Below, piece after piece: positions 11,181 through 52,309 of a DNA stretch of 56,998 nucleotides. The stretch spans positions 1-56,998 of the forward strand of contig JANWZI010000013.1 in the NCBI GenBank assembly GCA_025054695.1, read 5' to 3'. Position 1 is the stretch's first letter, and every line of letters begins with the position of its first letter. The notes under the pieces were generated by a model. It made no database searches, was not told the origin of the DNA, and saw only the letters and a program-made list of their open reading frames with translations. Source of the stretch: Myxococcota bacterium. Its GTDB lineage: Bacteria; Myxococcota_A; Polyangia; Polyangiales; JANWZI01. Both the position numbers and the translations under genes were made by a program.

Positions 11181-11338
11181 GCGGCGTCCTCGGTCGCGGC
11201 CCGTACTGGGCCGAGCGTGCGAAACGCTCGACGAGCCGCTCGAGCGCGCGCGACGCTAGGCCGCCCCCCGCACGGTGTCAAGCGTCTCGGTCCGGTTCGC
11301 CGCGACACGGCTGCGCGGGGTTTCGCGAGGCCAGGACC

Positions 11339-11398
11339 AAGTCGGAGTTCGAGTCGGAGTCGGAGTCGGAGGCCGAGTCCGAGTCCGAGCCCGTGCCA
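11339..11398 (+). repeat. H4: GAGNCC hexamer tract, 10 units
   Basis: Ten units in one register, beginning AAGTCG and passing through three GAGTCG, then GAGGCC, two GAGTCC and GAGCCC. Lies in the divergent gap between nuoE and the lipoprotein at 11448. Not in frame with that lipoprotein. Confidence 0.82.
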
Positions 11399-11447
11399 GG
11401 GTCCACCGGTTGACCCGTTCCGGCCCGGCCCGCAGGCTCCATGCATC

Positions 11448-12170
11448 GTGCGGGAGCTGTCCGCAGTCCTGCTCGCAGCGGCGTTGGTGGGCTGCCCGCG
11501 TTCTTCGCCCGCGGCGGACGCCTCCGCGCGCGACGCGCCGGCCGCCGACCGGCCCCACGAGGCAGGCGGAGCCGACGATGCGGACGCCGACGGGCTGTGC
11601 GACGAAACGGAACGGCGGTACGGAAGCGATCCGACGTCGGTGGATACCGACGGGGACGGGTTCCCGGATTACTACGAGGTGGTCGCGGTGCTCGATCCGA
11701 CCGCGCCCTCGGAGCCACCCCGACAAGACGTCGTCGTCCTGACGGAAAGCGGCGGCTCGCGCGCGTCCGTCCACCTCGACATCACGGTGCGTGGCGCCGG
11801 CGAAGACTTTCAAGGCGCATTCGAATCCGTGTGGGTGCCGGACGTGGCGGGCACAACCGCCGCCGAGTTTTTCGAGGACGCCGACGCGATCGACGCGTAC
11901 CCGCGCGAGAACGTCGCGATCATCGAAGGGGAAATCGAGCGCTTCCGTGGCGTCGTGGGCCGCACGCGCCTGTGGTTCGAACTGACGTTCCTGTGGCGCG
12001 ACGCGTTGGAACGACGCTGCGTGCGACTCTATCCGTTCCACTACACCGTCAAGCGCAACGACGGCGTACTCGTGGCACGTCCCCGACGCCTGCTCCTGGT
12101 GGTGCCGGCCGGCACGTCGAGGCCGCAGCCCGCCTCGTGGTGCGCCCCTCCCGAAGCACCCTGCCGCTGA
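11448..12170 (+). CDS. predicted lipoprotein with calcium-binding-type DxDxDG repeats
   Basis: 240 residues; function not recognised. The GTG start gives a compact lipoprotein signal, VRELSAVLLAAALVGC, with L-V-G-C at the lipidation site. After a short Ala/Asp linker, DADADGLCDETERRYGSDPT and SVDTDGDGFPDYYE form a thrombospondin-type-3-like Ca2+ loop pair (about residues 45-80). The remaining ~160 residues are a beta-rich globular domain with two Cys and no motif I can name. Such Asp-loop lipoproteins are common on the surface of Polyangia-type bacteria. Stands alone; the divergent neighbour is the nuo operon. Confidence 0.75.
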   Translation: MRELSAVLLAAALVGCPRSSPAADASARDAPAADRPHEAGGADDADADGLCDETERRYGSDPTSVDTDGDGFPDYYEVVAVLDPTAPSEPPRQDVVVLTESGGSRASVHLDITVRGAGEDFQGAFESVWVPDVAGTTAAEFFEDADAIDAYPRENVAIIEGEIERFRGVVGRTRLWFELTFLWRDALERRCVRLYPFHYTVKRNDGVLVARPRRLLLVVPAGTSRPQPASWCAPPEAPCR

Positions 12171-12217: not shown

Positions 12218-12470
12218 GAATCTGAATCCGACTCAAAGTCCGAGACGACGAGCACGCCCGATACGCAGCACGGAGTCTGAGGCCAAGTCAAAAGCCGAGT
12301 CCGCATCCGAGACCGACTCGGAGCCCGTGTCCGAGTCCGACACCCCGGACGGCCCCGAGTCGGAGACCGCGTCTGCGGACGAGTCCGAGCCCAAGCCGGA
12401 AACGGCTTCCGAGACCGACTCGGAGTCCGAGTCCGCCTCACAGTCCGAGCACGCGACCGAATCCGAATCC
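12218..12470 (+). repeat. H5: GAGNCC hexamer tract, 38 units in two registers
   Basis: A short first block (12218-12247, 5 units) and a long second block (12273-12470, 33 units) are offset by 55 bases, that is one base out of phase. The unit is more diverged than elsewhere (AAGTCA, AAAGCC, GCATCC, GTGTCC, GACTCG), but the 6-base register of the long block never slips. The following stretch, 12471-13062 (about 590 bases), holds no gene I can support: the open frames there have no recognisable family on either strand. Confidence 0.8.
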
Positions 12471-13062
12471 GTCTTCACGGGCCATTGGCCGTCCCCGACC
12501 AAGCAGGTAGCCTGTTCGGTGCGTTGGCGCAGAAGTCTGTCGTTCCTTTGTGCCACGAGCCGCCGAGTCAAGACCTCGGGCTCGCCGTACAGCGCAGTCC
12601 GCTGGCGACCCGAAGAGGTACGGGTTTCTCTCTTGCGCGCAGAGGTGACCCTCGACGCCCTTCGCGTGGGCCGGATCGACCTGTCCGATGTTCCCTTGCT
12701 GCCCGGCCTCGAGCCGCTGCGTTTTGCGGCTGCCCCGCGGTTCCAGCCTCCGCTCCAGCGCGCCGCTCCGTGGATCGGTCGGCCGATCCCCGTGCGGCGA
12801 TCCACGCGGACAACTTTGAGCGAGCGGTGATGGTTGCGCGCTGGGACTTGCCTGGGCGAGCACGCGCCACGGCGGTGATTGTCGCGGCGCGCTAGCCAGC
12901 GCGCTTGCGGGGTATCGCGTCCTCCCCCTGGCCCGATGACACCGGACTGCGCAGGTCTGTTGTCCCCGTCAGCATCCCGAATTCCGAAGACTCCGCCGAA
13001 CGGCACGTCCCTTGCTTGGCGCCAATGTGAAACGCACCGAACACAAAAGGGGAAGCGCAAGA

Positions 13063-14589
13063 ATGCGTACCAGGAGCCGGACCGCAGGCGCTTGCGGGTC
13101 GTTGCTAACGATTGTTGCGCTCGGGTGCGCCGGGGAGATGGGGCCTGCGCGGCGCGTGCGTGGATCATCGGACGCCGCAATCTCGGAGATCGACGGCGGA
13201 CTTCCCTGTGATCCGGCCGCGTGCGGTGCGTCGTGCCGAGCGAGCGGTGCCGCCGGTGGGCGGTGCGAGGCCGACGCTCGTTGCGCGTGCGTTGCGAGCT
13301 CAACCGAGGAGGCCTGTGGCGACGGCTTCGACAACGACGCAGACGGCGCAATCGATGAGAGCTGCGCGTGCATGCCGGGAGCGATGCAGGCCTGTTACAC
13401 AGGTCCTGCCCAAGCGCGCGGAGTCGGTGCGTGTCGCGAAGGACGTCAACGCTGTGTGTCCTCCGGAGAATTCGGCGCCTGGGGAGCCTGCGAAGGCGCC
13501 GTCCACCCCGCAGTCGAGCGCTGTCGCGGCACCGACGACGACTGCGATGGCCTCGTCGACTGCGCGGACCCTGATTGCACGGAGGCGTTGTCCTGTTCGT
13601 GTCGCCCCCGGGATGAATCCTGCACCAACAGCGCGGACGACGACTGCGATGGACTCGTCGACTGCGCCGACCCTCACTGCGGCATGCATCCCGTCTGCTG
13701 CGTGCCGCGCTCGGCAATCGAGAGCACGTGTGACAACGCGACCGACGACGACTGCGACCGGCTCATCGACTGCGTCGACCCCGATTGCGCAACCCAACCC
13801 GCCTGTTGCATGCCTCGCTCCGAAGCCTGCAGCAACTGGGTCGACGATGATTGCGATCGTCTCGTGGACTGCGCAGACTCGGATTGCCGCGGACAACCGG
13901 CATGCTGCATGCCGTATCCGGAGCAGTGCACGGACGGGGCGGACAACGACTGCGATGGGCTCGTGGACTGCGCAGACCCGCATTGCGAAACGAGTGCGGC
14001 CTGCTGCCGTGTCGGCGCGGAAACGGGCGGTGCGTGCACCGATGGACGGGACAATGATTGCGACGGATCCATCGACTGCATGGACCCGGACTGCACTGCG
14101 CCCGGCGGGTCTTGTCGCGCGACTTTCTGCAATACCGGCGGAACGTGGCGATTGGATAGGGCCTGGTACTGCTGCTGCGGATCGGGGCCCGGAGGATTGG
14201 GAGGGTTCATGAGCGGAACCACAGGAGGCGGTTGCGGAACCACCCCATGGTCGAGCGGAACGTTTCAGGCGCGATGTGCGGGAACGTACAACGTTTGTTT
14301 TCGTACGACACCGAACGGGGGGTCGGGGTGCACGTTGAACGAGCAATGTGTCACGGTTCGCGTGCCGACCGATGGCGCGACGGTGTCCGTTCCGGCCCTG
14401 AACGGTTGGGGATGCGATCGAGGGGCATGCGGCGACGAAGCTTCTCGCCTGGGAGGGCGCGTGTGCGTCCGCGTCACCGGAACGACGGTTGATGGCGTCC
14501 CCGTTTCGCGGGAAGGTAGTTGTTCGGTCGAATCCGGAGCATGCGGTGGCGGGGGTGGCGGTGGTGGGGGTGGCGGCGGCTCGTGGTAG
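13063..14589 (+). CDS. Cys-rich lipoprotein with six MopE-like DxDCDG repeats
   Basis: 508 residues, predicted lipoprotein. The ATG start has AAAGGGGAAG upstream and gives MRTRSRTAGACGSLLTIVAL followed by GC, with the lipid Cys at residue 22. One degenerate (about 85-101) and six good copies (about 154-344) of a C-x7-CDG-L-V-DCADPDC unit follow. These are the Asp/Cys 'putative metal-binding motif' found in the copper-binding MopE family and many myxobacterial surface proteins. A second Cys-rich beta domain fills residues 350-490, and the protein ends in a run of about 12 Gly. Metal binding is inferred from the family. Not linked by operon structure to its neighbours. Confidence 0.8.
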   Translation: MRTRSRTAGACGSLLTIVALGCAGEMGPARRVRGSSDAAISEIDGGLPCDPAACGASCRASGAAGGRCEADARCACVASSTEEACGDGFDNDADGAIDESCACMPGAMQACYTGPAQARGVGACREGRQRCVSSGEFGAWGACEGAVHPAVERCRGTDDDCDGLVDCADPDCTEALSCSCRPRDESCTNSADDDCDGLVDCADPHCGMHPVCCVPRSAIESTCDNATDDDCDRLIDCVDPDCATQPACCMPRSEACSNWVDDDCDRLVDCADSDCRGQPACCMPYPEQCTDGADNDCDGLVDCADPHCETSAACCRVGAETGGACTDGRDNDCDGSIDCMDPDCTAPGGSCRATFCNTGGTWRLDRAWYCCCGSGPGGLGGFMSGTTGGGCGTTPWSSGTFQARCAGTYNVCFRTTPNGGSGCTLNEQCVTVRVPTDGATVSVPALNGWGCDRGACGDEASRLGGRVCVRVTGTTVDGVPVSREGSCSVESGACGGGGGGGGGGGGSW

Positions 14590-14925
14590 CGAGCGTCCCC
14601 ACCATGCCCGCTCGGTCCAATCGGCAATGCGCATCGGCGTAGCCACGTCGTGCCTGCACTCCCGCTCAGGGAACGAAGTCGGGATGGGTTCCCACCGGAC
14701 TTGGGCCGTCCCCGACGAGGGAAAGAGGCAAGAGGTTGCGCGCTGCGGCGGATAGGTCGGTGGTTCCGTGGTGGCAGAAACCCGCGAATCCGTCGGACCC
14801 TGGGTCCCGCGATTCCCCCGCACGGTCGCCTCGGGTCGGCAACACGACCCCGGAACACGCGCTCGAGGGCCTCGCGCTCGCCCTACAGGTCGGCCCGCTC
14901 GCCGCCTGAGGAGTCTCAAGGCTCA

Positions 14926-14997
14926 GAGTTCGAGTCCGAGATTGCGCCCGAGGCCGACTCCGCGTCCGCGCTCGAGGCGGGTGCCGTGACCGAGCCT
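14926..14997 (+). repeat. H6: GAGNCC hexamer tract, 12 units
   Basis: Twelve diverged units in one register (GAGTTC, GAGTCC, GAGATT, GCGCCC, GAGGCC, GACTCC and so on). It lies in the 452-base convergent gap between the MopE-like lipoprotein and the membrane protein ending at 15042. The rest of the gap, 14590-14925, shows nothing I can name. Confidence 0.72.
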
Positions 14998-16658: not shown

Positions 16659-16801
16659 CGCACGCGTCGCCCTCCGCGTTCGGAGCGCCCTGGGACCGCA
16701 CGTGCCTCGCGGCGGGGCCGTCTCGGTCGTGGCCACGACGCACGAGCCTACGGGCGCTCACGGAATTGCCGAAAATTCGTGCGATGGGACGCGGGAACCC
16801 G

Positions 16802-16933
16802 GACACGGAGTCGATGTCGGGCTCCCATTCTGGCTCGGATTCGGACTCGGTCTCGGTCGCGGGCTCCGACTCGGCCCCGCACATGGCCTCGGGCGCGGTC
16901 TGGGACGCGGACTCGGGTTCGAGCTCCGACGCG
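16802..16933 (-). repeat. H7: GAGNCC hexamer tract on the minus strand, 22 units
   Basis: Plus-strand units are GACTCG, GTCTCG, GGCTCC and similar, so GAGNCC is on the minus strand, the same strand as both flanking genes. One register over 132 bases. It sits in the 317-base gap between the membrane protein start (16658) and the kinase-PilZ stop (16976). Confidence 0.78.
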
Positions 16934-16975
16934 AACGCCGCTGCCGCCGCACCCCAACGGGCCGCGCGCGCAACC

Positions 16976-18444: not shown

Positions 18445-19401
18445 GTGGCACGCGCGCGCACCTTCCAGGACCTCGTGCTCTGCCTGCAGCGCTTCTGGGC
18501 CGAGCGCGGTTGTCTGATCGTCCAGCCGTACAACAGCGAGGTGGGCGCGGGCACCTTCAACCCGGCGACGTTCCTGCGCGCGATCGGGCCCGAGCCGTGG
18601 AACGTCGCGTATGTCGAGCCCTCGCGGCGACCGACGGACGGCCGCTACGGAGACAATCCCAACCGCTTGCAGCAATTTCACCAGTTCCAGGTGATCCTGA
18701 AGCCTTCGCCGCTCGACATTCAGGAGCTGTACCTGGACTCGCTTCGGGCGATCGGCACCGACCCGCTGCGACACGACATCCGCTTCGTCGAGGACGACTG
18801 GGAATCGCCCACGCTCGGCGCATGGGGCCTGGGATGGCAGGTCTGGCTCGACGGACTCGAAATCAGCCAGTTCACCTACTTTCAGCAGTGCGGCGGCATC
18901 GACTGTCGACCCGTCAGTGGCGAGCTCACGTACGGGCTCGAGCGCATCGCGATGTACTTGCAGGACTGCGACGACGTGTTCGATCTCGACTGGGGCGCGG
19001 GCGTCCGGTACGGCGAGCTGTGGCGGCGCGCCGAGCGGGAGTGGAGCACGTACAACTTCGAGCGCGCCGACGTCGACACCTACCTGCGCAACTTCGACGA
19101 GCAGGAGGCGCGCTGCCACGCGCTGCTCGGCCTCGAACGCGGCCGCGGGTCGGACGGCGGGCCGCGCTTCCGCATCGAGGATCCGCTCGAGCGGTTGGTT
19201 CTGCCCGCCTACGACGCGGTCGTCAAGTGCAGCCACCTGTTCAACGTGCTCGACGCGCGCGGCGCCATCGGCGTCACCGAACGGCAGCGCTACGTGCTGC
19301 GCGTCCGCTGGATGGCGCGCGCGGTCGCCGAAAGCTGGCTCGCGCAGCGCGAGCGTCTCGGTTTTCCGTTGTCGCGCGCGGCAGCCGCGGCGACGCCGTG
19401 A
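18445..19401 (+). CDS. glyQ: glycyl-tRNA synthetase alpha subunit
   Basis: Catalytic alpha chain of the bacterial heterotetrameric glycyl-tRNA synthetase. 318 residues, slightly longer than the usual ~300. Hallmarks include [20 protein letters not shown] near the N terminus, [39 protein letters not shown], and [20 protein letters not shown] followed by [15 protein letters not shown]. The GTG start is supported by family alignment. glyS, which encodes the beta chain and normally follows directly, is absent: glyQ is followed by hexamer tract H8 and a protease gene. The beta subunit must be elsewhere in the genome, since the alpha chain alone is not expected to be active. Confidence 0.95.
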
Positions 19402-19430
19402 AGCGTGCGCTCGCTCCCGGCGCGGCGAGC

Positions 19431-19610
19431 GAGCCGAGGACGGAGCCGGAGGCCGTCTCGGAGTCGGCGTCCGAGATCGAGTCCGAGTCCGAGTCCGACC
19501 CCGAGTCGGAGACCGAGTCCGCGACCGAGTCCAAGCCGGAGTCGGGGCCCGAGTCCGACCCCGAGTCCGAGGCCGAGACCGAGACCAAGTCCGAGTCCGG
19601 GGCCGAGGTG
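19431..19610 (+). repeat. H8: GAGNCC hexamer tract, 30 units
   Basis: Thirty units without register loss over 180 bases, between glyQ and the serine protease. The tract is in the protease frame and the frame is open through it. It could therefore be read as a Glu/Ser-rich extension if an upstream start were used, but the protease signal peptide lies after it. Confidence 0.85.
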
Positions 19611-26288: not shown

Positions 26289-26330
26289 GAGCCTGAGTCC
26301 GAGGCCGAGACCGAGCCAGCGGCCAAACCG
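26289..26330 (+). repeat. H9: GAGNCC hexamer tract, 7 units
   Basis: Short run (GAGCCT, GAGTCC, GAGGCC, GAGACC, GAGCCA, GCGGCC, AAACCG) just downstream of purA. It and H10 flank the IS630 remnant and may be two halves of one tract split by the insertion. Bases 26331-26497 hold nothing I can name. Confidence 0.7.
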
Positions 26331-27316: not shown

Positions 27317-27424
27317 GAGTACCAGTCCGAGTTTGAGTCCTTGACCGAGCCCGAGCCCGAGCCCGACACCGAGCCCGAGCCCGAGCCGGAGCCCGAGCCT
27401 GCGTCACGGGCCGAACCCGACCTC
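27317..27424 (+). repeat. H10: GAGNCC hexamer tract, 18 units
   Basis: Eighteen units in one register, dominated by GAGCCC, ending 4 bases before the ftsQ stop codon (27429-27431) on the opposite strand. It forms the boundary of the dcw operon. Confidence 0.83.
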
Positions 27425-44562: not shown

Positions 44563-46734
44563 ATGAGCAGGAAGATGGCACACACACCGAACCGATCGTT
44601 CGTCGCCGTGCTTACGTCGATTCCACTGCTCGCCGTCACTGCGGGCTGCGTGCAATCGACTTCGGATGGGGGCGGTTTCAGTCCCGAGCACCCGGTCGGA
44701 GCCGCCAGCGTCGCCCTGACGCGTTCCCGCAGCTGCGACGACCTGGTGCGGCTCGCTCAGGCTGATGCCCTCGCGCACATCGAGGTGGCCACCGCTCAAT
44801 ACCTCGAGTGGTACGCGGAGTACTTCGACCGAGGGGGAGGCGGAGGAGCCGATGCGGGTGCCGCGGCGCCGGCTCCCGCCGATGGTGCCGGTTCCCGCGA
44901 CGAGGGGCCGTCGACCTATTCGGAGACGAACGTCCAGGTCGAGGGCGTCGACGAGGCAGATATCGTCAAGACCGACGGGCGACACATCTATGCGCTGGCC
45001 GGTAACCGGTTGCACGTGCTGCGGTCGTGGCCCGCGAACGAAACGAGCTTGCTGGCGAGCTTCGATATCGAGGGCTACGTCCACGAAATGTTCGTGGCCG
45101 AGGGCCGGGCGCTGGTCTTTTCGCAGACGGGCGATCCGCGGGGCCCGGCGGAAGGGGATGCGAGGTGCGCTGTACCGGGGGCGCGTGATCGCTGGCGGTG
45201 CGGCTGGGGCGCCGGCTTCACCAAGCTGACCGAAATCGCGCTCGACGAGCTGTCCTCACCGCAGCTGGTGCGCGAGTTGTACGTGGAAGGCGAGTATTTG
45301 AGCTCGCGTCGCCACGGCGACCGGGTCCGCGCGATCATCACGAATTGGGGCCATTTCTTCGATTGGAACCTGCCGTCGGTCTGGGAATACCTGTACCCTG
45401 AGCCGGGCAGCGCATTCGGTGGACCACCGCGCTCGAGCACGGAGGCGAGGCTGCGCATCCTCGCCTGGCGGCGCCATGCCATCGCGTACGTGCGCGCGCT
45501 TCGCGACGTCGCGGATTGGGTCCCCGCCGCCTTCGAGCGAGACGGCGGCCTGTTGCGCGCCGTCCCCCCCCGTTGCGATGGGTTCTACTTCCCCGGCCCC
45601 GGCATGACCGACGTGGGCATGACGCAGATCGTCGGCATCGAGCTTCGCTCCGACACCCCGATCGCTCGAACGGGCATTTCCGGACGCGCGCTCCAGGTCT
45701 ACGCGAACGCCGACACGATGCTGCTGGCTCAGCCAGACTACTCGGTCGCTTTCCGCGCCTGGCGCGACGACGCCGACATCTACGAGGACCGCACGGTCCT
45801 GCATCGGTTCCGACTCGAGGACGGGATCGAGACCGTGTACGAAGCCTCCGGCGTCGTGCCCGGAGTTCTCGTCGACCAGTTCGCGATGGACGAGCGCGAC
45901 GGCGTGGTGCGCGTGGCCACGACGCAGACGCGCTGGAGGCCATGGTGGGAAGACTGCGGCCGATCCGGATGCGGCTGGACGGAGCCGGAGACGACCAATC
46001 AGGTGCTCACGCTTCGGACGGCAGAGCCGGGCGCGCTCGTCGTGGTCGGCAGCACCGGACCGATGGCCCCGGGCGAGCGGGTCTTCTCCGCGCGTTTCGT
46101 CGGGGATCGCGGGTACGTGGTGACCTTCCGACGAGTCGACCCTCTGTTCGTCGTCGACCTCTCGGTCGCGGAGCGCCCGCGCGTGCTGGGTGAGCTGAAG
46201 ATCCCTGGGTTCAGCACGTACATGCACCCGCTCGGCGTCGATCACCTGCTCACCATCGGCTACGAGGCGGACGAGGCTTCGGGCCGCGTGCTGGGGCTCG
46301 CGCTGCAGATCTTCGACGTCTCGGTCCCCACCCGTCCCACGCTGAAGCACAAGCACGTGTTCGAGCGCGAGGGATGGTCGGGGTCCGAGGCCGCGTGGGA
46401 TCATCGCGCGTTCACGTACTACGGGCACCTGAACCTGCTCGCGTTCCCGTACTTCGCATGGAATCCGGAATGGACCGGGTTCCGCAGCAGCCTCGAGGTA
46501 TTCGAGGTGGACGTCGAGGAGGGCTTGCGCCCGGTCGGGTCCATCAACCACTCGGAGCTGCTCGCGGGGCGTTGCACCCCTGAGTACGGCTGCCATCCGT
46601 ACGAGGTGATGGTGCGACGCGGCGTGTTCATCGAGGACTATGTCTACTCGCTGTCGGAAGGCGGCGTGCTCGTCCACCACGTCTCCGACCTGGGCCGCGA
46701 AGTGGCGCGCGTGCCGTTCGTCTCCGCGCCCTGA
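44563..46734 (+). CDS. secreted beta-propeller domain lipoprotein (COG4880/PF09826 type)
   Basis: 723 residues. Start ATG 44563 with an ideal AGGAGG (44551-44556). Signal peptide SFVAVLTSIPLLAVTAGC gives a lipoprotein. After a Gly/Ala-rich linker comes YSETNVQVEGVDEADIVKTD and GRHIYALAGNRLHVL, the diagnostic opening of the 'secreted protein with C-terminal beta-propeller' family. The rest is WD40-like blades, for example GERVFSARFVGDRGYVVTFR and DPLFVVDLSVAERPRVLGEL. An insertion with paired Cys (WWEDCGRSGCGW) may hold a disulfide. The biochemical role of the family is unknown; surface or periplasmic location is inferred. Followed by a kinase gene 127 bases downstream. Confidence 0.85.
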   Translation: MSRKMAHTPNRSFVAVLTSIPLLAVTAGCVQSTSDGGGFSPEHPVGAASVALTRSRSCDDLVRLAQADALAHIEVATAQYLEWYAEYFDRGGGGGADAGAAAPAPADGAGSRDEGPSTYSETNVQVEGVDEADIVKTDGRHIYALAGNRLHVLRSWPANETSLLASFDIEGYVHEMFVAEGRALVFSQTGDPRGPAEGDARCAVPGARDRWRCGWGAGFTKLTEIALDELSSPQLVRELYVEGEYLSSRRHGDRVRAIITNWGHFFDWNLPSVWEYLYPEPGSAFGGPPRSSTEARLRILAWRRHAIAYVRALRDVADWVPAAFERDGGLLRAVPPRCDGFYFPGPGMTDVGMTQIVGIELRSDTPIARTGISGRALQVYANADTMLLAQPDYSVAFRAWRDDADIYEDRTVLHRFRLEDGIETVYEASGVVPGVLVDQFAMDERDGVVRVATTQTRWRPWWEDCGRSGCGWTEPETTNQVLTLRTAEPGALVVVGSTGPMAPGERVFSARFVGDRGYVVTFRRVDPLFVVDLSVAERPRVLGELKIPGFSTYMHPLGVDHLLTIGYEADEASGRVLGLALQIFDVSVPTRPTLKHKHVFEREGWSGSEAAWDHRAFTYYGHLNLLAFPYFAWNPEWTGFRSSLEVFEVDVEEGLRPVGSINHSELLAGRCTPEYGCHPYEVMVRRGVFIEDYVYSLSEGGVLVHHVSDLGREVARVPFVSAP

Positions 46735-46861: not shown

Positions 46862-48742
46862 ATGATCCGCAAGGTCGGCCGTTACGAACTGCTCGAGGAA
46901 ATCGGGCACGGGGGCATGGCGACGGTCTACCGCGCGCGCGACAGCCGTCTGGATCGCGCGGTGGCCGTCAAGATTCTGCACCCGCACCTGCGCGGGGCGC
47001 ACGAGGCGCGCGTCCGGTTCGACCGCGAGGCGCGCAGCGTCGCGCGCTTGCGGCATCCCCACATCGTCGAGATCTACGACAACAGCGACGAGAACAGCGA
47101 AGAGGGGTACATCGTCACCGAGCTGCTGACCGGCCCGACGCTGCGGGCTTTCGCCGAGGCGCACCCCGACATGCCGGTCGAAGTCGCCGCCTGCCTGGGC
47201 ATCGCGATCGCCCGCGCGCTCGGCGCGGCGCACCGAGCGGGCATCGTGCACCGCGACGTCAAGCCCGAGAACGTGCTGCTGCACGAGGCACGCGACATCA
47301 AGCTCACCGACTTCGGCATCGCGCAGATGCTCGACGCGCAGTCGTTCACCGTCACGGGCCAGATCCTGGGCTCGCCCGCCCACATGGCGCCCGAGCAGGT
47401 CGAAGGCGGGCCATGTGACGCGCGGACGGACGTCTTCGCGCTCGGCACCCTGCTCTATTTCCTGGCGACCGGGCGTCTCCCGTTTACGGGGCGCAATCCG
47501 CACCAGGTCCTGCGCCGCGTCGTCGAAGGAGATTACCCGGACCCGCTCCGGCTCCGTCCGGCCATGGGCACGCGCTTCCGCGCCATCCTGACGCGCTGTC
47601 TCGCGCGCAATCCCGACGAGCGATTCGCGAGCATGGCGGATCTGGAGCGCGCGTTGCTCGAGTTTCTCGCCCATTCGGGGGTCGACGACCCCGACGCGCT
47701 GCGGGTGCGTTACCTCGGCGATCCGCAGGGAACCACGCGGGAGCTCGTTCCCCGCGTCGTCGAGACGCTGATCGGGAGGGGCAAGCAGGCGGCCGCGGCA
47801 GGCCGCCTCGAGGAGGCACTCGACGACTGGAATCGCGCCCTCGCGCTCGACGAGGGAAACACGCGCGTGCTCGGGCTCGTCGAGCGACTGCACCGGCAGC
47901 ACCGCCACCGGCGTCTGGCCGTAGGGCTCGTCACCGCGGCTGGATCGCTCTCGCTCGCGGTCGCGGCGTGGGCCTCGATGCGGACGGATCCGGACGCCAC
48001 GGCGACCGATGCGCGCGATGCAGCACGCGCGACGACGCAGCTGGCGCCGGATGCGAGCGCGATCACCGCGAGCGCGGACGCGACGACGCGAGACGTCGCT
48101 CGCGTCGCTCGCACGACGACCGACGCCTCGTCGAACGAACCCGTGCGTCAGCGCACAGCCAGTCGGGAAACGTCCGGCGGCGAGCAGCGCGGAGCGGACC
48201 CGTCGTCGTCACCGCGCGCGTCCGCCGAGCGCGCGCTCGTCGCCAATCCCGATCGCGCCGCACCGCGGCGCGTCGTCTTCGACCCGTGGCCCACCGACGA
48301 CGTCCAGGTCTCCATCGACGGCGGCCCCCTGCGGCCGTATGGCAGCGAAACGCGCGCGGTGGATCTCGTCCCCGGGCGCCATCACATCCGCGCGGTCACG
48401 TCCCAGGACTGTTGCGAAGAGTGGTCGGCCGAGGTCGAGGTCCCACCGGGCGACGAGCCCCTGCGTCTGCGCATTCCGCTGCCGCTTCGGCCCGCAGCGA
48501 TCATCGTTCGGACGCGAGCCGGGACCGAAGACGGACCCAACGTCTTCGGTGACGTGCTCGTCGGCTCCAGTCGCGGTCGCACGCACGACCCGTTGCTCGT
48601 GCCCGTCGACGCCGTCTCGACGCGACTTCCGTTCCGCGTGACGGCACCCGGGTACCTCGAGCACGACGGCGTGCTCGAGGCGCGCGCCGGTCGCACGACG
48701 ACGCTGATCGTGGTGCTCGAGCCGCGCCCCACGCAGGGCTGA
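46862..48742 (+). CDS. transmembrane Ser/Thr protein kinase with PEGA-like extracytoplasmic domain
   Basis: 626 residues. Hanks-type kinase (about 7-268): IGHGGMATVYRARD, Lys37 in AVKILHPHL, GIVHRDVKPENVLL with Asp132, DFGIAQ at 150-155 and MAPEQVEGG. A TPR-like helical linker (about 303-345, AAAAGRLEEALDDWNRALAL), one transmembrane helix (about 351-372) and a Thr/Ala-rich spacer follow. The extracytoplasmic domain (about 470-626) has the PEGA-type beta pattern (VQVSIDGGPLRPYG, AVDLVPGRHHIRAV, FRVTAPGYLEHDG). The layout suggests a kinase that senses the envelope. ATG 46862 is taken because the kinase domain starts at once; no ribosome site is obvious. Confidence 0.9.
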   Translation: MIRKVGRYELLEEIGHGGMATVYRARDSRLDRAVAVKILHPHLRGAHEARVRFDREARSVARLRHPHIVEIYDNSDENSEEGYIVTELLTGPTLRAFAEAHPDMPVEVAACLGIAIARALGAAHRAGIVHRDVKPENVLLHEARDIKLTDFGIAQMLDAQSFTVTGQILGSPAHMAPEQVEGGPCDARTDVFALGTLLYFLATGRLPFTGRNPHQVLRRVVEGDYPDPLRLRPAMGTRFRAILTRCLARNPDERFASMADLERALLEFLAHSGVDDPDALRVRYLGDPQGTTRELVPRVVETLIGRGKQAAAAGRLEEALDDWNRALALDEGNTRVLGLVERLHRQHRHRRLAVGLVTAAGSLSLAVAAWASMRTDPDATATDARDAARATTQLAPDASAITASADATTRDVARVARTTTDASSNEPVRQRTASRETSGGEQRGADPSSSPRASAERALVANPDRAAPRRVVFDPWPTDDVQVSIDGGPLRPYGSETRAVDLVPGRHHIRAVTSQDCCEEWSAEVEVPPGDEPLRLRIPLPLRPAAIIVRTRAGTEDGPNVFGDVLVGSSRGRTHDPLLVPVDAVSTRLPFRVTAPGYLEHDGVLEARAGRTTTLIVVLEPRPTQG

Positions 48743-48762
48743 CGGCACCGGGCGGCGACGCG

Positions 48763-48990
48763 GAAGCCGAGACCGAGTCCGAGTTGGTGGCCGAGGCCGA
48801 TTCGGCGTCCGAGTCGGAGTCGGAGGCCGAGACCGAGGCAGGGCCCGATTCCGACCCCGAGCCCGAGTGGGAGCCCGAGTCCGAGCCCGAGTCGGAGACC
48901 GAGTCAGAGACCGAGTCCGAACCCGATTCCGAGCCCGAGCCCGAGCCTGTGTCCGAGGCCGAGGCCGAGGCCGAGCCGGGGGCGGAGTCC
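48763..48990 (+). repeat. H11: GAGNCC hexamer tract, 38 units, longest unbroken register
   Basis: Thirty-eight hexamers over 228 bases with no insertion or deletion. Base 4 of the unit is T 15, C 10, G 9 and A 4 times, while bases 1-3 are nearly always GAG and base 5 is nearly always C. It lies between two plus-strand genes (kinase and glycosyltransferase) and is not in the frame of the downstream gene. Confidence 0.88.
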
Positions 48991-49057
48991 GCGGGCAACG
49001 ATGTGCCGCCCCCGTCTCGACGCCGGCTCGTGCCTCGACTACACGGACGGCGGCAGC

Positions 49058-51661
49058 ATGCCGCGCCCGCTTCGCGTCCCGGTCGCGCTCGCCGCGCTCG
49101 CGCTCGCTGCGCTGGCGCTTCTCGCCTTCTGGCGCCTGTCGGCGTTCGGCATCTGGGACCCGTGGGAGCTGGAGCCCGCAGACGACGCGCGCCGCATCCT
49201 CGCGGGCGAACCGCTGACGAGCGCGCGGCCCGAACTGAGCGTGTGGCTCATCGCGCGGGCGTTCGACCTGTTCGGCGTGCGCGAGTGGGCGGGGCGAGCG
49301 CCGATCGCGCTCGCGGGCCTGATCGCCGTCGGCGCGGCGGCCTGGATCGGCGCGCGTCTCGGGGGCGCGCGCACGGCGCTGTACGCTGCCCTCGTCGCCG
49401 GCACGAGCCCCCTGCTGCTCTTCAATGCGCGCCACATGCTGGGTGAGGCCCCGGCTTTCGCCGCGCAGGGACTGCTGGGCGCCGCCATCGGCAGCTTGCT
49501 GTTCGGTCGCGCTGGCTCCTGCGGCAATCGACCGATGGCCGGTACGAGCCGGTGGAAGCTCCCCGCGCTGGGCGTTCTCGCCGTCGCCGCGGCCCTACTC
49601 GCCACGAGCGCGCGCGGCGTCTTGCTCGGCGTGCTTCCACCCGTGTGCGCGGCCGCGCTCGTGGTCTTTCTCGACGGGCGCGCGTGGCGGACGCGCGAGC
49701 GCGTGGAGCGAGTCGTCGGCGCGGTCGTGCTGTCCGTCGCGTTGCTGCTGACCGTGCTCGTCGCCCGCGCGATCGTCACCGATGCGTTCGAATACTCGGC
49801 GTGGCTCGGCGGCCGACCGCGTGGCGGCCAACCACCGAGCTTCGAGGTCGAGATCGAGGCGCTGTTGCACGCCTTCGCGCCGTGGAGCGCGCTCGTCCCC
49901 GTCGCGTTCGCCGTCGCCGTCGCGCGCGTGCTCTGGCCCGGAAGCGAGGAACCGACGAGCGCGATCCCCGAGAACGCCCCGCCGCTGACTCCGACGTCGT
50001 CGCCGACGCCCCCGAACCCCGCGGAGCCGTCCGGGGTGGCAAACGGCGCCACGGACCCCGTCCAAGCAACGGCGAGCCGGGACGACGGTACAAGCGGCGC
50101 GACGTCGACGTCGGCCGTGCGCGCGGACGCCCTCGCGAGCCCATCCTCGTCGGACGCGAGCGCACCCGCCGGCGACGCGAGACTCGAAGCGTTCCTGGTG
50201 GCGTGGGCGGTGCTCGCGTGGGGCGCGCTCGTGCTCTTCACGTCCCGCTACGGTCCGGCCGCGTACCCCGCCGTCGTCGCGCTCGCCGCGCTCGTCGGCC
50301 TGCTGTTGTCGCGCATCGAACGGAGCGGCGTACCGTGGGTCGCCGCCGGGATTGTCGCCGTGCTCCTGACGTGCCTGCTCGCGCGGGACCATATCCTCTA
50401 TCCCGCAAGCCCCCTCGCCGGTCTGGGCATCGACGGGCCGACGGTGCCCGAGGCATTCGAGGCGCGTCGTGCGTGGGCCGTCATGTTCGTCGTGTTCGCC
50501 GCCGGGCTGCTCGCGTCGTTGTGGGCACGTCCCGGCGTGCCGTTTCCGGATCTGCGCGCGCCCTACCGCGGCGTGAGGGATTTGTGGCGGCGCGGACGGC
50601 CCTGGAAGGCGTGGCTCGTGCTCGCGGCACTGCTCGCCGTCGGTTCCACGATGTTCGGACTCGTCGCCGTCCTGGCGGGCGAGCAGCTCGGCCTCATGGT
50701 CATCGTGCAGAAAGTCGGCAAGCTCTTCGTCGTCGCCCCGCCTATCGTCGTGCTGCCCGCCGCCGTCGCGGCGCTGCAGCTCGTGCGGTGGCTGCTCGGC
50801 CGCCTCGGCCCGCTACGAATGCTCCCCATCTCGCTCGCGGCCCTTGCGTTCGCCGCCTGGATCGTCTTGGGCTACCAGCCCGCGCTTTCCGCACACCTGT
50901 CCCCGCGCGAGGTCTACGACACGTACAATCGCCTCGCGCAGCGCACGGAGCCCCTCGCCGAGTATCGCGTCGGGGGCCGTGCAGCCGCCTATTACGCGCG
51001 CGGCGAGGTCCGCGATGTCCGCACGCAGGGGGAGCTGCTCGCGATGCTGCGACGGCCCGATCGCGTCTGGGTCGCCATGGCGGCCGACGAGCTGCCCTCC
51101 GTCAATCGCGAGTTCCGGCGCGCGACGGGCCGGCACCTGTTCGTCGCCGACGCGCGCAGCGCGCGCGTGGTGCTCGCCACCAACCAGCCCGTCGCCGGCG
51201 TGCAGGACCAGAACTTCCTCGCCCGTTACGTACTCGACCGACCCCCGCGCGTGCAGTTCCCCGTCGGCGCGCGCTACGAGGACAAGATCGAGCTGGTGGG
51301 CTACGACCTCGAGCTGCCCCGCGGCGATCACGTGGGCACGGGCGAGTCGTTCACCGTCACGTGGTACTGGCGCGTCCTGCGTCCGGTCCCCGGCGGCTAC
51401 AAGGTCTTCCTGCACATCGACGGCGAGGGCAACCGCCTCAACGGCGATCACGATCCGGTCGACGGCCGCTACCCGGTGCGTCTGTGGGACGAGGGCGACG
51501 TCGTCGTCGACACCCAGCGGCTGACGGTCCCCGCGAACTATCGTCCGGGCCTCTACACGATGTTCATCGGCTTCTTCAGCGGTGAGACGCGGCTCGAGGT
51601 CGTCGCCGGCCCCGAGGACGACGCCAATCGCGTGCGCGCCGGCGTGTTGAGGGTGCGATGA
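49058..51661 (+). CDS. GT-C glycosyltransferase, ArnT/PMT-like (family 39), with C-terminal beta domain
   Basis: 867 residues, multi-spanning. First helix PLRVPVALAALALAALALLA, then the catalytic loop FGIWDPWELEPADDARRILA with the acidic D-x-W-E/D-D signature of PMT-2/ArnT enzymes. These use polyprenyl-phosphate sugars outside the cytoplasmic membrane. More than ten helices follow, interrupted by a Pro/Ser/Thr/Ala-rich linker of about 75 residues (about 310-385). After the last helix (~620) a soluble part ends in a beta-sandwich (KIELVGYDLELPRGDHVGTG, then YKVFLHIDGEGNRLNGDHDP) seen in other family members. Substrate unknown. The stop overlaps the PilZ gene by four bases, hinting at c-di-GMP control of this glycosylation. 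Confidence 0.82.
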   Translation: MPRPLRVPVALAALALAALALLAFWRLSAFGIWDPWELEPADDARRILAGEPLTSARPELSVWLIARAFDLFGVREWAGRAPIALAGLIAVGAAAWIGARLGGARTALYAALVAGTSPLLLFNARHMLGEAPAFAAQGLLGAAIGSLLFGRAGSCGNRPMAGTSRWKLPALGVLAVAAALLATSARGVLLGVLPPVCAAALVVFLDGRAWRTRERVERVVGAVVLSVALLLTVLVARAIVTDAFEYSAWLGGRPRGGQPPSFEVEIEALLHAFAPWSALVPVAFAVAVARVLWPGSEEPTSAIPENAPPLTPTSSPTPPNPAEPSGVANGATDPVQATASRDDGTSGATSTSAVRADALASPSSSDASAPAGDARLEAFLVAWAVLAWGALVLFTSRYGPAAYPAVVALAALVGLLLSRIERSGVPWVAAGIVAVLLTCLLARDHILYPASPLAGLGIDGPTVPEAFEARRAWAVMFVVFAAGLLASLWARPGVPFPDLRAPYRGVRDLWRRGRPWKAWLVLAALLAVGSTMFGLVAVLAGEQLGLMVIVQKVGKLFVVAPPIVVLPAAVAALQLVRWLLGRLGPLRMLPISLAALAFAAWIVLGYQPALSAHLSPREVYDTYNRLAQRTEPLAEYRVGGRAAAYYARGEVRDVRTQGELLAMLRRPDRVWVAMAADELPSVNREFRRATGRHLFVADARSARVVLATNQPVAGVQDQNFLARYVLDRPPRVQFPVGARYEDKIELVGYDLELPRGDHVGTGESFTVTWYWRVLRPVPGGYKVFLHIDGEGNRLNGDHDPVDGRYPVRLWDEGDVVVDTQRLTVPANYRPGLYTMFIGFFSGETRLEVVAGPEDDANRVRAGVLRVR

Positions 51662-52110: not shown

Positions 52111-52309
52111 GATCCCGAGCCCGAATCGGTGACCTGAGGCCGAGACCGAGACCGAGGCCGAGGCCGAGACGGAGGCCGAGACAGCCCCCGAGGCCAAGCC
52201 AGAGTCCGAGTCGGTGTCCGAGACCGAGTCCGACTCCGAAGCCAAGTCCGAGACAGAGTCCGAGCCCGAGACGGAGTCCGTGACCGAGCCCGAGACGGAG
52301 CCCGACCCC
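52111..52309 (+). repeat. H12: GAGNCC hexamer tract, 33 units in two registers
   Basis: A four-unit block (52111-52134) is separated by one extra T (52135) from a 29-unit block (52136-52309). The extra base creates an in-frame TGA, so the tract cannot be one coding stretch. It lies in the convergent gap between the PilZ gene and the TetR gene. Confidence 0.85.

Follow-up and report, generated by a model that had tools for sequence, protein, structure and literature searches.

Between a protein kinase gene and a glycosyltransferase gene of a Myxococcota bacterium, the six-base unit GAGNCC is repeated in tandem, with one base apparently free and the remainder apparently kept. What kind of sequence is this, and what would hold five positions of a unit while the fourth varies? 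A sequence-only reading of the window, the whole 56,998-nt stretch of DNA analysed here, had proposed either a Leu-Gly reading frame under protein-level selection or a protein or RNA contact that skips one base in every six. The answer we favour, and consider somewhat probable, is that the tract, termed H11, belongs to a genome-wide family of non-coding (GAGNCC)n arrays that lie in the gaps after stop codons and have grown by unit duplication.

The H11 tract and its neighbouring genes

H11 occupies positions 48757–48996 on the + strand and consists of 40 units in a single register. The interval previously described (48763–48990) contains 38 units, all in the same register, and the absence of a register slip claimed for it extends to one further unit on each side. 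The tract score of H11 was 174, whereas the maximum over ten Markov-1 shuffled windows was 17.4. Across the 38 units the reported base-4 counts (T15 C10 G9 A4) were reproduced, and base 4 was more variable than each of bases 1, 2, 3 and 5 (Fisher p = 2e-9, 3e-5, 1e-4 and 3e-7, respectively) and than base 6 (p = 0.011). The other five positions had all been described as held. This stands for G1 (38/38), A2 (33/38), G3 (32/38) and C5 (36/38), with the qualification that base 6 is also loose and shifts from C (27/38) to G (8 units). Neighbouring units had been said mostly to differ at base 4 without forming blocks of identical bases, in agreement with the 10 identical neighbours counted among 37 adjacent pairs, where shuffling gave a mean of 10.1.

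The gap between the two genes is filled by H11. Upstream lies a Ser/Thr protein kinase gene with TPR (46862–48742, +; start as called, the open reading frame opening at 46640), and downstream a PMT_2-type glycosyltransferase gene (49001–51661, +; start as called), for which the ATG at 49058 is a likelier start than the called position 49001. The TGA stop of the kinase gene (48740–48742, +) is followed by CGGC, as in the motif found at the ends of other tracts. Resemblance of H11 to those ends is limited to this TGACGGC start, and the tract did not match the end models significantly.

A genome-wide family of intergenic arrays

The tracts form a genome-wide family of dispersed intergenic arrays, which tend to follow closely on stop codons and to be scarce in divergent gaps. 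Within the 4.27 Mb assembly, exact 24-mers made of four GAGNCS units number 3317, against 97 for the reversed control. A 1.04 Mb sample, consisting of 61 stretches of which some were picked for their tract content, contained 228 tracts that make up 3.2% of its bases, and scaling this sample by the 24-mer count gives an estimate of about 670 tracts for the genome. Arrays have a median length of about 20 units and a maximum of 71. All 152 intergenic period-6 arrays detected in the genome by Tandem Repeats Finder (TRF) were GAGNCC, a single unit type.

Genes were called with a simple self-trained caller written for this analysis. Among gaps of 60–1500 nt, a tract was present in 57 of 77 convergent gaps (74%), 84 of 217 tandem gaps (39%) and 24 of 99 divergent gaps (24%); for gaps of 150–300 nt the corresponding figures were 34/40, 37/71 and 4/26. 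Tracts lie close to the 3' ends of genes and farther from gene starts, with a median stop-to-tract distance in tandem gaps of 45 nt for sense tracts and 25 nt for antisense tracts. In tandem gaps, tracts run both with and against the upstream gene (53 sense, 33 antisense), and no leading-strand bias was found, neither orientation being in excess per contig (chi-square p 0.34).

The window itself contains about 14 tracts in total. Those on the + strand include tracts of 13 units at 345–422, of 14 units at 1239–1322, located 5' of an FtsJ methyltransferase gene, of 13 units at 11327–11404, and of 33 units at 12273–12470, located 3' of the gene at 11448–12170. These are followed by a weak tract of 12 units at 14926–14997, one of 31 units at 19425–19610 in a gap of tandem + genes (for the gene after it, the start called at 19398 is probably too early), one of 6 units at 26289–26324 with a stop codon 46 bases before it, and one of 18 units at 27317–27424 that abuts the stop of a gene on the − strand. 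A further + strand tract (52136–52309) occupies the convergent gap between a PilZ gene (+) and a TetR gene (−). On the − strand, a tract at 2196–2419, in segments 2196–2249 and 2258–2419, lies in the convergent gap between FtsJ (+) and an antiporter-type gene (−), and a tract of 26 units (16795–16950) lies in a gap of tandem − genes. Separately, the caller placed no gene in the approximately 2.4 kb at 12471–14925, in contrast to the remaining window.

Variability of base 4 across arrays

Over 175 tracts comprising 4473 units, base 4 had an entropy of 1.83 bits, compared with 0.45–0.99 bits at the other positions. Because our tract scorer gives base 4 zero weight, and detection is thereby biased, the claim of a free fourth base was re-run with TRF, which is phase-neutral in detection. 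All 126 of the indel-free TRF arrays of at least eight hexamers in this genome were GAGNCC, and base 4 was the most variable position in 114 of them, with an order of variability of 4>6>3>2,5>1. Held positions stand at 80–93%, with A2 at 86–91% in this genome. The consensus base 4 of the 152 intergenic arrays was T in 95, C in 36, A in 16 and G in 5, and a change of consensus outside base 4 was seen in none of the 152.

The composition of base 4 (T.41, C.31, A.18, G.10) departs from that of intergenic DNA (T.14, C.36, A.14, G.36), and the position is therefore loose but not neutral. Its order along the arrays is memoryless in this genome, as identities at lags 1–12 are near those of shuffled arrays in the same 175 tracts. 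Shared base-4 words showed only a weak excess, both inside single tracts and from tract to tract (71 versus 42 ± 9 at k = 10 for copying between loci), and whole-array copying between loci was rejected on these grounds.

The repeat is non-coding

On the complementary strand the unit reads CTC GGN, and it was proposed that selection on a (Leu-Gly)n peptide leaves the third base of the Gly codon free. The ideal unit is indeed open in six frames, and the loosened positions 3 and 6 loosely fit a GAR NCS pattern, as in a (Glu-Xaa)n frame on the GAG strand. The Leu codon ends in the complement of base 1. Being four-fold degenerate, this base would be expected to vary as freely as base 4, but the unit is more conserved there than anywhere else (G at.93 in the tracts and.96 in the TRF arrays). 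The Glu-Xaa frame was also rejected, the third base of NCC being C at.80–.85 versus C.47 and G.40 at genic third positions. The phase of the units bears no relation to the frame in which the upstream gene is read, with counts over the three frames of 41/42/32 for sense and 40/27/28 for antisense tracts. Stop codons within 194 tracts were present in all six frames, 52 of them in the Leu-Gly frame, and the tracts lie outside called genes and beyond their stop codons, with 31 of the 228 in the 1.04 Mb sample overlapping a called gene. The hexamer repeat is non-coding, in that its degenerate codon positions are not free and a single open frame is absent. We regard a coding role on either strand as extremely improbable, and the Leu-Gly proposal was abandoned.

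Inverted-repeat ends on a minority of tracts

About 30% of tracts have at least one recognisable end, which begins TGACGGCGGCGGTCA, and about 70% have none. When the flanks of the 228 tracts are read inward, 50 left flanks match TGACRGCGGCGGTCACGTTGNTYGACGTGGCCGAGGGGTGTTGC and 43 right flanks match TGACNGCGGCGGTCAGGTTGGTYGATCGCGRCTC, and 25 tracts carry both ends where 9.4 would be expected. The left and right ends share the pattern TGAC-GCGGCGGTCA-GTTG-TYGA and are terminal inverted repeats, although the two ends within a copy match one another no better than ends taken from different copies. Matches to the end motifs adjoin tracts in 55 of 61 and 60 of 63 cases. The 1.04 Mb sample contains 9 that lie away from tracts, of which 3 have E below 0.01, and other genomes in the order show no enrichment of the motif. 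Three occurrences without an adjacent tract (L061:8931-8975, L073:19735-19762 and L075:8520-8546) are possible solo ends or sites of lost tracts.

The arrangement of ends and array suggests a dispersed element with the hexamer array as its core. Among its copies no pair exceeded about 81% identity, so that recent movement is not seen, and no target-site duplication was visible by inspection of the 25 two-ended copies. In 20 of 93 ends the TGA of the end falls exactly on the stop codon of a gene. Two of the proteins at such ends could be judged against their families, NF006102 matching to position 392 of 394 and DUF4266 to 50 of 50, the last residue. As these matches reach the C-terminus, the ends lie at native stops in those two cases, for which the creation of new stops by insertion of the ends was rejected.

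Ends are kept about equally whether they face the 3' end or the 5' end of a gene, and on this basis a directional terminator was rejected. They also lack pairing covariation and contain no covarying hairpin. These properties also count against the possibility that the tracts act as a signal in 3' untranslated RNA, whether as a Rho loading site, by TRAP-like binding of GAG or as a structured terminator. The location of the tracts 3' of stop codons and the recurrence of a GAG triplet every six bases would suit such a signal, but the mixed orientation relative to the upstream gene in tandem gaps would not. Predicted folding did not stand out (−0.37 and −0.46 kcal/mol per nt, versus −0.415 for other intergenic DNA) and a match in Rfam was absent, so that neither an RNA structure nor the low structure of a Rho-type site was retained. 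An RNA-level role is therefore judged improbable.

Tracts in other genomes of the class

A survey of 318 genomes of the class, which include no other species of the family of the window, found mixed tracts to be sporadic, occurring in G249, G053, G054 and G076 with a few scattered matches elsewhere. G249 represents another family of the class, and G053 and G054 belong to one genus within the order of the window. Tracts of the same kind as those described above are present in G249, which has 7874 matches to four consecutive GAGNCC units, whereas matches of the mixed kind are nearly absent from its four congeners. They occupy 11 of 19 convergent gaps and 1 of 35 divergent gaps in G249, frequently only a few bases from a stop codon, and are without shared flanking ends. 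The convergent gaps of the congeners have a median of 20 nt, and the G249 tracts consequently look added. At the one locus where an empty-site comparison was made, the downstream gene was not syntenic, hence no clean empty site was obtained.

Base 4 again varied most in 26 of the 28 TRF arrays of G249, with an order of looseness much as in this genome, which bears out across arrays the contention that base 4 varies more than the other positions. In G249 base 4 is mainly A and G and is partly clumped (lag-1 z 5.5). The arrays of G053 are often pure or composed of alternating blocks. Their unit is G[A57 T17 C14 G11]G[T55 A24 G11 C10]CC, with base 2 about as variable as base 4 in a sample picked by the GAGNCC pattern, a choice favouring base 4. 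Variability at both positions in G053 argues against a single universal binding factor. It had been reasoned that pure slippage would leave blocks of identical base 4, and the relatives agree, with blocks in G053, partial clumping in G249 and none in this genome. Two tracts of G053 (L182:8551-8796 and L185:6952-7301) consist of alternating twelve-base units, GAGACC-GTGGCC and GAGGCC-GTGTCC, and in one tract of G249 (L205:14192-14383) the units grade from GAGGCG and GAGACG, by way of GAGACC and GAGTCC, into a GAACCC block.

Other intergenic hexamers, among them AAGGGT and GGGGAC, occur in the congeners of G249. One of these congeners, G250, has a telomere-like (AAGGGT)n array at L232:6698-6731, and the G249 orthologue of the gene before this array is followed by a GAGNCC tract. 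The G250 array indicates that intergenic hexamers arise more widely.

The Y1 transposase PF01797 gave no match in this genome, of which the assembly is 92.6% complete, or in G249, G053 and G054. With these four tract-rich genomes unmatched and no covarying hairpin in the ends, an origin of the RAYT/REP type was rejected. A match to the Y1 transposase is present in 4 of 4 congeners of G249 and 0 of 4 tract-rich genomes, perhaps by coincidence. MutS1 was above the cut-off in this genome, G053, G054 and G249, and loss of mismatch repair was dismissed as a simple cause of the expansion.

Possible origin and maintenance of the hexamer skeleton

Slippage alone should not randomise one position while sparing five. 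In the explanation we favour, arrays would have started from a pure hexamer (GAGTCC in this genome, GAGACC in G249) and would have grown by unit duplication, for which ordinary slippage could account. Spread within this genome may have occurred, at least partly, as a small element with inverted-repeat ends at native TGA stops. Once growth slowed, base 4 would have drifted to near-random while G1, A2, G3, C5 and C6 were held at the DNA level. The blocks of G053, the partial order of G249 and the memoryless arrays of this genome can be placed in a series, an ordering that we infer across separate lineages. The holding force would be either a factor that reads CCGAG and ignores the spacer or a position-specific process of mutation or duplication. 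GC pressure, whereby G1, G3, C5 and C6 are held and A/T positions are loose, fits G053 but not this genome or G249; A2 is also an A/T position yet is held while base 4 is loose, and GC pressure alone is thus insufficient.

The two rival views of the skeleton, as a protein binding site or as a neutral satellite, are two ways to complete this explanation. A neutral origin, with functionless hexamers born by slippage in gaps that tolerate insertions and base-4 variation set by founder units and by an A/T mutation bias in a GC-rich genome, is quite conceivable, if short of an even chance. The G053 arrays are ordinary slippage blocks in which the weak positions 2 and 4 are labile and the G/C positions fixed, and the congeners of G249 carry hexamers of other sequence. 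Base-4 composition is compatible with transitions from the founder base, T to C here and A to G in G249, and 3' gaps without promoters would tolerate insertions. Under this view A2 should match base 4 in lability, which it does not in this genome or in G249, and the constancy of the consensus beyond base 4 in all 152 arrays likewise counts against it.

The alternative completion supposes a putative DNA-binding protein that reads CCGAG once per six base pairs, ignoring the spacer base, with the arrays after genes acting as an orientation-independent roadblock or insulator where transcription units converge and purifying selection acting on five positions. We hold this tentatively and consider it rather unlikely. 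Base 4 is randomised, the skeleton is well kept and the majority of tracts have no recognisable end, so that decay may have gone further around the tracts than in the skeleton itself; the absent ends, however, possibly never existed. A2 is kept contrary to the base composition of the genome, convergent gaps are favoured and divergent gaps avoided in two genomes, and orientation is mixed with respect to both genes and contigs, as for a DNA site. Against this, the near absence of tracts from the congeners of G249 implies no conserved need, and base 2 is free too in G053. A broader and more speculative proposal, which we doubt, is that a dedicated sequence-specific system, sporadic in myxobacterial lineages, has left the arrays as its footprint, recognising CCGAG at six-base intervals irrespective of the spacer base. 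Such a system might be a multimeric DNA-binding protein that keeps converging transcription units apart, or an enzyme that creates or amplifies the repeat with one non-templated position.

If the skeleton is selected, several hundred arrays per genome would mark gene ends, convergent ones above all, as candidate insulators or roadblocks. If it is not, position-specific variability in two families presents a clean problem in repeat mutation.

Comparison with known repeat families

No description of the GAGNCC repeat was found in the literature, nor any equivalent in this group. The short tandemly repeated repetitive (STRR) heptamers of cyanobacteria are dispersed intergenic repeats of fixed unit length, but with seven-base units and motifs other than GAGNCC. 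Mycobacterial MIRUs insert at stop codons. The GAGNCC copies resemble MITEs and MIRUs as a small dispersed element with inverted-repeat ends, and differ in that no target-site duplication was seen and their interior consists of a variable hexamer array. For REP/BIME elements, which are associated with RAYT transposases, hundreds of dispersed extragenic copies are described (PMC2817692). GAGNCC copies are likewise dispersed in hundreds, but have neither the covarying hairpin nor, in the four tract-rich genomes, the transposase.

The best reading of the GAGNCC tracts is that of a lineage-specific intergenic short-tandem-repeat family, for which the nearest described case is the GGGNATC heptamers of Xanthomonas and Nostoc. 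These are genome-wide, lineage-specific and mainly intergenic, occur on both strands and are rare in divergent gaps, with a preference for arrays of four units (PMC4692102). In Xanthomonas they lie on average 28 nt from the 5' neighbouring gene and 160 nt from the next, and positions 1–4 and 6 of the heptamer are held while 5 and 7 are loose (PMC4692102). The GAGNCC tracts likewise lie between genes, close to stop codons and seldom in divergent gaps, and their unit too has held and loose positions. Unlike the heptamers, the unit has six bases and its consensus, GAG[TCA]CC, contains no run of three G, so that no G-quadruplex is expected. The arrays are also far longer, with the median and maximum given above, base 4 is near-random, convergent gaps are favoured and some copies have shared inverted-repeat ends.
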